Position numbers and translations under genes: made by a program. This document shows, piece after piece, positions 490-10,135 of a DNA stretch of 33,553 nt. Source of the DNA: an uncultured Clostridia bacterium. GTDB taxonomy: Bacteria; Bacillota; Clostridia; Christensenellales; UBA1242. The stretch is taken from the NCBI GenBank assembly GCA_946484195.1, contig CAMLSW010000011.1, positions 1-33,553 of the forward strand. Reading direction: 5' to 3'. Below the pieces are notes generated by a model. The model was given only the letters and a program-made list of their open reading frames with translations, was not told the DNA's origin and ran no database searches. Positions within the stretch are counted from its first letter, which is position 1. Each line of letters begins with the position of its first letter.

Positions 490-628
490 TAGTATTTTAA
501 GGATTATAGTTATAAATATATAACCAAAAATTAAATTAACGAACTTTTCTGACGACTTTTTTCTCAAAAGTTTATTTGAGATTTGACGAACTTTAAATCA
601 TTTAGTCTTTATATCTTTCTTAATCTAG

Positions 629-650
629 GCGACACTATAGTCGCTTTTTT
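629..650 (+). terminator. Intrinsic terminator of the tRNA cluster
   Basis: GCGAC (629-633) pairs with GTCGC (640-644), loop ACTATA, followed by six T. It is the first plausible terminator after tRNA-Tyr. Confidence 0.75.
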
Positions 651-697
651 GTTTATAATTGATTTTATGATTTTTATATCTTTATTTATACTATTAA

Positions 698-758
698 AAG
701 CCGAACTTGCTTGTAAATATGAGTTTGATGGTCATATTGTCTGAAATGCCTTGAGGCT
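698..758 (-). repeat. Inverted, loop-expanded copy of the repeat tail module
   Basis: Read on the minus strand, this begins AGCCTCA (758-752) and ends CAAGCAAGTTCGGCTT (713-698). The last 16 bases are identical to 1006-1021 of the first repeat copy in the other orientation. The AGCC/GGCT stem is kept but the interior is much longer and contains its own hairpin (TATGA/TCATA). No protein is encoded. Adjacent minus-strand hairpins ATGAG/CTCAT (761-774) and GAACTC/GAGTTC (786-805) suggest a structured region of about 110 bases. Confidence 0.55.
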
Positions 759-785
759 GGATGAGGACGCTCATTACAGGATGTT

Positions 786-813
786 GAACTCGGGTGTCTG
801 AGTTCTTTTTTTT
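786..813 (+). terminator. Rho-independent terminator ending a structured non-coding segment
   Basis: GAACTC (786-791) pairs with GAGTTC (800-805) and is followed by eight T. No ORF lies upstream, so it may end a short non-coding transcript covering about 690-805. I could not match that segment to SRP RNA, 6S RNA, tmRNA, RNase P RNA or a riboswitch I know. Confidence 0.6.
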
Positions 814-843
814 ACTTGTTTTTTCTGGAACTAAGTATTATGC

Positions 844-880
844 AAAAAACACTTTAACTATTTTTGTTAAAGTGTTTTTT
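844..880. terminator. Strong bidirectional terminator
   Basis: A perfect 15-bp stem (844-858 with 866-880, core ACACTTTAAC) has a 7-base loop, with A-run and T-run on the two outer sides, so it can terminate transcripts from either direction. It stands just before the first cloverleaf repeat. Confidence 0.8.
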
Positions 881-897
881 GTTAGGATAATATATAA

Positions 898-1023
898 ACT
901 ATGTGATGTTAAAATTTTATTATCATAAAATTTTATAAATTCTAACGAATTTGCGTGCTTTGCCCGCCCATCACATAGTGTGTATAAACATCAGCCTCAC
1001 CCTTGCAAGCAAGTTCGGCTTCC
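898..1023 (+). repeat. Cloverleaf-plus-tail repeat, copy 1
   Basis: Cloverleaf 898-979: outer 11-bp stem ACTATGTGATG/CATCACATAGT encloses three hairpins, AAAATTTTAT/ATAAAATTTT (loop TATC), AAATTC/GAATTT (loop TAAC) and GCGTGC/GCCCGC (one mismatch, loop TTT). A 12-base linker leads to the tail module 993-1021, where AGCC pairs with GGCT around CTTG/CAAG. A near-direct repeat GATAATATA stands before this copy and before copy 2, so the two form a tandem array with a period of about 136 bases. No coding sequence is inside. Confidence 0.85.
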
Positions 1024-1033
1024 GATAATATAA

Positions 1034-1173
1034 ACTATGTGATGTTAAAACTTAAACAAGTTAAGTTTTAATTTTGCTAAACGCAAAAACACAATAAATT
1101 GTGTTCATCACATAGTATGTATAACCCTCAGCCTCACTCAAATACAACTAAAGTTGTGCTTGGTTCGGCTTCC
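1034..1173 (+). repeat. Cloverleaf-plus-tail repeat, copy 2
   Basis: Same 11-bp outer stem (1034-1044/1106-1116) and same layout, but different arms: AAAACTTAA/TTAAGTTTT, TTTTGC/GCAAAA and ACACAAT/ATTGTGT-type pairing. The tail (1130-1171) keeps the AGCC/GGCT stem, but its interior is replaced by an unrelated hairpin ACAACT/AGTTGT. Structure is retained while sequence changes. Confidence 0.85.
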
Positions 1174-1257
1174 AAGAAAAAATTGTATTATTTATATTTA
1201 CTATACATAAAAAACATTTAGGCACAATTTAACGCAGCGACAACTTAATACATATAA

Positions 1258-1789: not shown

Positions 1790-3621
<1,832 letters not shown>

Positions 3622-9776: not shown

Positions 9777-9914
9777 ATGACAAAACGAGCAATTTCACTT
9801 TTGACAAGTCTTATAATGCTTCTTGTAAGCATATTTTTATTGCTCTGTTATTTTGTATTTAAAACCGATAAAATCACTTTGCATTTAAACGCGAACAATT
9901 TGACTTTATTATGA
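9777..9914 (+). pseudogene. 45-codon ORF with signal anchor, apparently cut off by a repeat element
   Basis: ATG at 9777 opens an ORF with a basic N-terminus (MTKRAISLLT), a strong hydrophobic segment (about residues 5-28) and a polar continuation FKTDKITLHLNANNLTLL, then TGA at 9912-9914. The stop lies at the edge of a half-copy of the cloverleaf repeat (from about 9914). This looks like the N-terminus of a longer membrane-anchored or exported protein disrupted by the repeat. It could instead be a genuine short peptide. No ribosome binding site is obvious. Gap 9635-10151 otherwise holds the scpAB promoter, repeats and the dacF terminator. Confidence 0.4.
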
Positions 9915-9952
9915 AATTCGAATTTGTGTGCTATGTCCACCCATCACATAGT
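9914..9952 (+). repeat. 3' half of a cloverleaf repeat (partial copy)
   Basis: The sequence matches the second half of copy 1 (936-979): AAATTC directly joined to GAATTT (loop TAAC missing), then GTGTGC/GTCCAC, which differs from copy 1 GCGTGC/GCCCGC by a paired C-G to T-A change, then the right outer arm CATCACATAGT (9942-9952). The left arm, first hairpin and tail are absent. It abuts the left arm of copy 3 with only four bases between. Confidence 0.7.
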
Positions 9953-9956
9953 ATAA

Positions 9957-10081
9957 ACTATGTGATGTTAAAATTTAAACAAGTTAAATTTTAATTTTAC
10001 TAACGTAAAAACAAAATAAATTGTGTTCATCACATAGTATGAAAACCCTCAGCCTCACCCTTGCAAGAAAGTTCGGCTTCC
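9957..10081 (+). repeat. Cloverleaf-plus-tail repeat, copy 3
   Basis: Outer stem 9957-9967/10028-10038 is identical to copies 1 and 2. Inner arms are AAAATTTAA/TTAAATTTT (copy 2 has C-G where this has T-A), TTTTAC/GTAAAA (copy 2 has G-C where this has A-T) and AACAAAA/TTGTGTT with one mismatch. The tail 10051-10079 keeps AGCC/GGCT and resembles that of copy 1. It lies just before the dacF terminator. Confidence 0.85.
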
Positions 10082-10088
10082 GATATAT

Positions 10089-10135
10089 AAAAAAGGTGAC
10101 TTTGGAAAGCCTAAGCTTCAAAATCACCCTTTTTA
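10089..10135 (-). terminator. Terminator of the dacF-like gene
   Basis: On the minus strand GGTGA pairs with TCACC, then TTTTG/CAAAG and AAGC/GCTT around loop TTAG, followed by six T. Confidence 0.8.

Follow-up and report, generated by a model that had tools for sequence, protein, structure and literature searches.

The window, which is the whole stretch of 33,553 nucleotides analysed, holds three cloverleaf-bearing repeat units on its forward strand. Unit 1 (898-1033) begins with a three-armed cloverleaf of "type A" at 898-979, with outer stem ACTATGTGATG/CATCACATAGT, and continues through a linker and tail hairpin to a right end, CTTCCGATAATATAA, at 1019-1033; the sequence ATATAA precedes it at 892-897. 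Unit 2 (1034-1173; R1 170.7 bits) adjoins unit 1 head to tail and has a "type B" cloverleaf (1034-1116), a tail with a long arm 4, and a degenerate right end (CTTCCAAGAAAAAAT, to 1183). Unit 3 (9957-10091; R1 145.9 bits) also has a type B cloverleaf (9957-10038), followed by a tail hairpin and a right end extending to 10091. Directly 5' of it, on the same strand, lies a truncated older type A unit consisting of the 3' half of a cloverleaf (9911-9952). On the minus strand, a weak and decayed relative (686-786; R1 17.3 bits, E 0.037) has a recognisable tail hairpin at about 686-736 and a degenerate cloverleaf. Beside this decayed unit, positions 780-882 contain a terminator-like hairpin (GAACTC..GAGTTC, then a T run) and a perfect 16-bp hairpin, CAAAAAACACTTTAAC/GTTAAAGTGTTTTTTG. 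Another three-armed cloverleaf of like layout and unrelated sequence, with outer stem GGCTTGTCATC/GATGACAAGCC and no strand assigned, is located at 1651-1736.

The initial annotation had described cloverleaves at 898-979, 1034-1116 and 9957-10038, and re-reading of the sequence confirmed these coordinates. The compensatory changes that it named are real, both between copies 2 and 3 (C-G to T-A in arm 1, G-C to A-T in arm 2) and in the comparison of copy 1 with the partial one at 9911-9952 (C-G to T-A in arm 3). That the arms always pair is nearly correct, but one mismatch is present in arm 3 of copy 1 and another in arm 3 of copy 3. Likewise, the cloverleaf was properly recognised, but the true unit is longer, with nearly every copy continuing into a tail hairpin that ends in CTTCCGATAATATAA. 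In DNA folding against 200 dinucleotide shuffles each, the window cloverleaves gave z values of -8.5, -8.4 and -7.2, with no shuffle equalling them.

Alignment of copies together with their flanks revealed the layout of the full unit as a left flank TATAA, the three-armed cloverleaf, a linker (RTGTATRACCAT), a tail hairpin (CAGYCTCAC[arm 4]GTTCGRCTTCC) and a right end (GATAATATAA). Most units measure 136-151 nt; in 101 units whose stems had no more than two mismatches, the usual lengths were 135-139 and 147-153 nt, according to whether arm 4 is short or long. The tail stem itself covaries (AGCC/GGCT, AGTC/GACT, AGTT/AACT). In dimers, one TATAA is common to both units. Because the AA of the right end is less conserved (56/69 and 53/69) than the preceding bases, the exact unit boundary is uncertain by 2 nt. 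Under a strict rule with no mismatch allowed, three perfect arms are present in 10 of 19 chosen units, and the remaining 9, window unit 1 included, fail. Exceptions to the layout include cloverleaves without the usual tail or right end (L028, L053, L142:9508), the tail being absent in a few (L028, L142:9508). In a cloverleaf-like structure at L062:858-1047, arm 3 is separated from the outer stem by a large extra segment; a family unit adjoins this structure.

The host genome (G000; 1.34 Mb, 88 contigs, 80% complete) contains the exact outer stem pair at 20 places and the reversed pattern at none, and an exact-pattern scan of a GTDB-based collection returned 59 stretches, all from uncultured Clostridia, Firmicutes or Christensenella records; the stem repeats are therefore not chance. 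The exact stem pattern was absent from viral contigs, and blastn of window positions 880-1190 against phages and plasmids gave no match. A covariance-model search, as proposed in the initial annotation, was run with 20 type B units as the model and gave 43 host-genome matches at E <= 0.001, partial ones and ones at contig ends included. Units were found in 13 of the 61 genomes closest to the host. All 13 belong to a single genus, represented by 37 genomes with the host included, and the 24 genomes from other families have none. The number of matches per congener ranges from 0 to 26, with 0 in many genomes that are at least 97% complete; the longest arrays are five consecutive matches in G029 and three in G022. 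Across the order, 12 of 396 genomes gave matches, a lower bound set by strict filters, 7 of them belonging to the genus, 3 to other genera of its family and 2 to other families (G198, G260). The element was not met in a literature search confined to openly licensed PMC texts.

Evidence that the fold is kept comes from an alignment of 21 matches fitted to the structure, which includes two opposite-strand matches of palindromic copies. In this alignment 93.2% of cells are paired, as against 31.8-44.5% when the structure is slid, and double changes occur in 32 of 38 pairs, a count reached in 0 of 500 shuffles and compared with 10 to 18 for slid structures; 167 cells are changed on both sides and 7 on one. 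A MAFFT alignment of 20 units, where the outer stem is invariant because the copies were collected by that stem, gave double changes in 8 of 38 pairs (0 of 500 shuffles) and further pair types not above shuffles (11 versus 11.9). Inspection by eye showed that outer-stem and arm sequences differ in the units of G198, G358 and G260, and that the arms of two tandem units in G198 differ from each other; TATAA or something close to it nonetheless stands at the left of most order-wide units, most have a GTTTGAATWAACAT-like linker, and in most the right end is CTTCCGATAATATAA or close to it. What is conserved across families is the two-part fold together with the ends and, partly, the linker; the arm sequences are not conserved. 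Since the letters change freely while the shape stays, this suggests that the folded shape itself lets the element spread. The initial annotation took the compensatory changes as the signature of a maintained structure. The covariation is indeed strong, but selection is not compelled by it, because DNA template switching can rewrite both arms at once and inverted loops between orthologs, described below, point to such switching.

Comparison of the host with a close relative, G032 (93-98% identity where compared), showed that the unit is mobile, as judged from its presence in only one of the two genomes at three orthologous sites and from the head-to-tail arrays. At C45:5224, G032 has the empty site TTTTTATAA|TTAATT and G000 the filled site TTTTTTATAA[unit ending GATAATATAA]TTAATT. 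At C34:12577 a unit is present in G000 and the site is empty in G032, with A-rich flanks that make the alignment less exact. At G032:C3:21041 the unit is in G032, opposite about 33 other bases in G000 and so not a clean empty site. At another site, a single G000 unit stands opposite at least two units in G032. By reading of the alignment, the G032 unit at the window's first site appears to be nested in the tail of an older unit; at the second site, the truncated unit and unit 3 of G000 correspond in G032 to one type A unit, whole but partly decayed. Presence and absence at orthologous sites, head-to-tail arrays and patchy copy number together support the small hairpin mobile element that the initial annotation had offered as one option.

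Units sit immediately 3' of ATAATATAA-like sites, ATAATATAA being a copy of the unit's own right end. After filtering, 98 of 115 units were kept for target analysis, and in the 59 of these without a unit to their left, the left flank matches the unit's own right end at a mean of 6.56 of 8 positions (expected 3.19). The agreement spans nine positions, -9 to -1, with per-position p values of 1e-3 to 1e-23. Among 38 singletons, identity of the last 2-5 nt on the two sides is no more frequent when both come from one copy than when they come from different copies, and the left-right likeness over 8 nt shows a small excess (5.92 versus 5.68 of 8, p 0.011). From these alignments the insertion site is read as the element's right end plus a matching target, with no clear target duplication; the weak 8-nt excess leaves a little room for a degenerate one. 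The ATAATATAA rule in the 59 units and the empty sites display the pattern of IS200/IS605-type elements, which insert 3' of a short, fixed target and do not duplicate it. Each insertion adds one unit ending in its own ATAATATAA and in this way supplies a new target, which fits the head-to-tail arrays.

A search for two to four hairpins inside an outer stem of 9 bp or more revealed cloverleaves besides those of the family. In 1.204 Mb of genus sequence, part of it chosen around units, 13 three-armed, one two-armed and no four-armed structures were found; one of the former, L259:226 (ACTAAGTGATG), was rejected as a family variant, leaving 12. In other families of the order, 306 kb plus 369 kb (675 kb) gave no three-armed cloverleaf and one two-armed one, where about 6.7 three-armed would be expected at the genus rate of 12 per 1.204 Mb. 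These outside genomes are richer in G+C (0.42-0.43 versus 0.33-0.35 in the genus). Fivefold block shuffles (single bases within 200 nt) of the samples in the first of the two scans, the genus sequence among them, gave one two-armed hit. The lone cloverleaves are unrelated in sequence, those whose flanks were read are without the unit right end, and 14 of 15 overlap no ORF by more than 40 bp (the 15 include two orthologs, and the filter dropped L138:3995).

The window cloverleaf at 1651-1736 is one of these. It lies downstream of mnmA (1790-2884, minus strand), has perfect arms, and is without the unit linker or right end. The mnmA spacer of G032 contains an orthologous cloverleaf in which the arm loop TTTTC is inverted to GAAAA. 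Altogether, cloverleaves are present in this spacer in four other species, with those of G082 and G008 mutually related and showing compensatory outer-stem changes and that of G079 being another sequence; none was seen by eye in the other 9 of 13 spacers. A strict scan of 30 mnmA-spacer loci, which misses mismatched structures, found three-armed cloverleaves only at L270, L275 and L298, the last being a family unit. In a second orthologous pair, L136:1988-2081 (C45:1988, G000) and L187:4653-4746 (G032), the middle loop is CTT in one and AAG in the other. Inverted arm loops are a sign of a DNA-level event, and from their sequences they point to template switching in the lone-cloverleaf class; inverted loops are described as a template-switch pattern in PMC8794818. 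Two seemingly paralogous cloverleaves also lie 5.5 kb apart in G032 (L253:6594-6693 and L253:12073-12175), with related outer stems (GGCGAGAAA) and arms that are changed yet still paired.

Whether the fold is one of DNA or RNA was approached through mismatches, orientation and location. In 110 distinct cloverleaves, mismatch types number 36 G-T and 40 A-C (p 0.73), a count resting on a type A/B split that mixes some sequences. Unit orientation relative to genes is random (32/67 and 21/42), and the spacers that hold units are like background, with co-directional, convergent and divergent types at 42/12/11 versus 325/71/78. In a first pass, RNA folding energy was lower on the minus strand in 94 of 112 copies; the mismatch-type count is preferred to this result because the type split used there was faulty and because the consensus sequences share the same direction (-28.3/-31.3 and -26.5/-27.7). 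The initial annotation had named a match to a known Rfam family as evidence against its reading, and none was found in Rfam 15: at gathering score only tRNAs were returned in the window, and at relaxed E-value nothing reached gathering score in window positions 500-1200 or in 14 of 19 further stretches, where the best score was 32.2 bits against 43 needed and lay outside the units. Mismatch counts, intergenic location, orientation and spacer types do not appear, on sequence grounds, to suggest a transcribed RNA. With mismatches strand-symmetric, orientation random and Rfam silent, folded DNA would seem to fit better than RNA, and the non-coding RNA option of the initial annotation is weakened by the first two of these findings.

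To look for a mover encoded near the units, ORFs 70 aa or longer were clustered from the window together with 20 other stretches; the largest of 40 listed clusters had five members. Pfam searches with one member of each of the ten largest clusters around copies revealed no transposase; the matches were leucine-rich repeat, SRP54, terminase, sigma-70, valyl-tRNA synthetase, DegV and radical SAM, with three clusters having no match. In all, 260 right ends (not deduplicated) were found. A recognised unit lies upstream of 247; among the 10 distinct others none ends a visible gene-bearing larger element, with 7 lying inside open frames, 2 being tails that adjoin a full unit, and 1 a unit's left flank.

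The Y1 transposases (PF01797) to which the initial annotation's REP or IS200 lead would point were found in 6 of 61 genus genomes. At least 17 genomes are unit-positive, and these include 5 of the 6 with Y1 (hypergeometric p 0.005). PF01797 is absent from the 80% complete host genome, from the unit-bearing G029, G082 and G079 (97-98% complete) and from the unit-bearing G061. Of the four full-length Y1 copies, the three that were read (L300, L302, L303) are IS200-type elements with their own, differing end hairpins. No unit ends were found in 3357 bases examined at L300 and L302; at L303:1471-1926 (G065), which is the IS200-type transposase gene, a separate unit lies tens of bases beyond the IS element. 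A scan for unit ends at the partial Y1 copies L304-L307 and at L301 found none complete. GT[AG]G, 0-2 nt 5' of the hairpin foot, occurs at 1 of 115 cloverleaf feet and 0 of 115 tail feet. Elements that move in the IS200/IS605 manner should insert on the lagging strand; by the crude proxy of dominant gene strand, 32 of 67 units are oriented with that strand. The lead thus keeps the statistical co-occurrence in its favour but otherwise fares poorly, given the absence of PF01797 from the host and the other ends of the three copies read; the co-occurrence may simply reflect a richness of these genomes in mobile DNA.

Together, these comparisons show a real, mobile, sequence-flexible, two-part folding element with a ATAATATAA target rule, and we infer that an enzyme moves it in the form of folded DNA, or that template switching does so. 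The favoured reading, with a probability of about 0.58, is that the cloverleaf belongs to a mobile DNA element which is non-autonomous and moves as shape-recognised folded DNA via a trans-acting recombinase or transposase. The moving form would be a single DNA strand or an extruded cruciform, presenting a four-way junction and a hairpin, and its fold would be recognised by shape by the enzyme supplied in trans. Pairing would be kept partly since the fold is needed for movement, and partly via replication template switching that copies one arm onto the other. Weighing against this reading are the lack of a transposase among the ten largest ORF clusters, the right ends that close no larger element, the lack of bias against the main gene strand by the crude proxy, the weak 8-nt excess and the co-occurrence of Y1 genes with units. 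Of the interpretation in the initial annotation, the mobile element option stands, whereas the non-coding RNA option is weakened, REP/IS200 is little favoured and maintenance by selection is not compelled.

An account that dispenses with a dedicated enzyme holds that the cloverleaf stalls replication and the polymerase jumps between ATAATATAA copies at the target, the unit's left flank and the right end, copying the unit in or out; any strong fold would stall the fork, so the shape spreads. Target and right end are indeed one sequence, cells changed on both sides outnumber those changed on one (167 to 7), arm loops are inverted in two orthologous pairs in the manner described in PMC8794818, unrelated cloverleaves of like layout exist in the genus, and no transposase was seen among the largest ORF clusters and unit-less right ends examined. 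This account is nonetheless unlikely, because end sequences are kept across families where variable flanks and other microhomologies would be expected, and template switching alone leaves the recurrence of three arms unexplained. A broader idea, speculative and somewhat more doubtful, is that there is a class of mobile DNA inheriting a fold (a four-way junction with three arms) with replaceable arms, in which transposase-free births take place via ATAATATAA template switching and lone cloverleaves are other births or remains.

Passage of the units as REP-like passengers of IS200/REP Y1 transposases, present or past, would explain the co-occurrence (5 of 6 Y1 genomes among at least 17 unit-positive ones, 0.005) and an insertion geometry like that of IS200/IS605; it is improbable, as Y1 is found neither in the host genome nor in unit-bearing G029, G082, G079 and G061, L300, L302 and L303 have their own end hairpins with a unit, a separate one, only at L303, and the GT[AG]G foot is nearly lacking (1/115 cloverleaves, 0/115 tails). 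A structured non-coding RNA or bacterial SINE-like element, with its RNA fold selected and spread by reverse transcription, could account for the strong covariation, the partly conserved linker and the conserved 3' end, and RNA intermediates have been suggested, in PMC2800124, for Allomyces hairpin elements without flanking duplications. On neither strand, however, do G-U types exceed A-C types among the mismatches, the units are randomly oriented with respect to genes, Rfam gives no match and the loop inversions of the wider class are DNA-level, all of which make this reading quite improbable. That the units are ordinary palindromic protein-binding sites or bidirectional terminators spread within a conventional MITE agrees with their being palindromic and intergenic (0/93 overlap an ORF by more than 40 bp), but it is the hardest to credit: arm sequence is not conserved, the left ACTATG.. 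and right ..GATAATATAA are not terminal inverted repeats and the 11-bp stem is internal, there is no clear target duplication, and spacer types are like background.

The shape-recognised mobile DNA favoured here can be set beside several known systems. REP, BIME and REPIN elements, with their TnpA-REP (RAYT) proteins, form hairpins that have a GT[AG]G foot, and every family has a Y1 gene of its own, whereas the units are a three-armed cloverleaf plus tail with such a foot at 1 of 115 and with no cognate Y1 gene found in the genomes examined. The ends of IS200/IS605 and their deletion derivatives resemble the units in having the target at the left, a right end of similar sequence, no target duplication and secondary structures near both ends; they differ in that the unit cloverleaf starts at the junction, the host is without Y1, no strand bias shows by the crude gene-strand proxy, and the three IS200-type copies read in congeners have other ends. 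On this comparison the element works like a REP or IS200/IS605 passenger but fails defining tests of both, and so is not filed there. Integron attC sites are also recognised by shape as a folded single strand with little sequence conservation, but attC consists of one imperfect hairpin, is attached to gene cassettes and is cleaved at GTT, whereas the unit junction is ATAATATAA and no cassette genes were seen. Mitochondrial hairpin and double-hairpin elements of sponges and Allomyces and the yeast GC clusters are, like the units, small, thought mobile, hairpin-forming, mostly intergenic and with paired stems, and Allomyces hairpin elements have no flanking duplications (PMC2800124); those are organellar, whereas the units are bacterial, with an outer stem enclosing three arms and conserved linear ends, so that the resemblance is of kind only. 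The enterobacterial MITE-like RU-1 (127 bp), RU-2 and RU-3 are mobile intergenic repeats of similar size, and the start of the abstract of PMC2759123 mentions no three-armed architecture.

The unit is thus apparently a bacterial mobile element defined by its shape, with ends and fold kept, arms exchanged and a clear target rule. It offers one system in which to ask what mobilises folded DNA without a recognised transposase, and also how much of the "compensatory change" taken as proof of RNA structure arises from DNA template switching. The genus is a resource for such work, with filled and empty sites in close relatives and natural loop inversions. Units keep clear of genes: when ORFs of 120 aa or longer are considered, none of 93 units overlaps one by over 40 bp. 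Insertion at -10-like ATAATATAA sites could alter expression. At L006 (G000:C6:36758-36913), whose surroundings have no counterpart in G032, a unit lies between a promoter-like motif and a ribosome-binding-like site of an ORF, the former being TTGAAA..TATAAT, which we take to be promoter-like, and the downstream site being presumed to be ribosome-binding-like.
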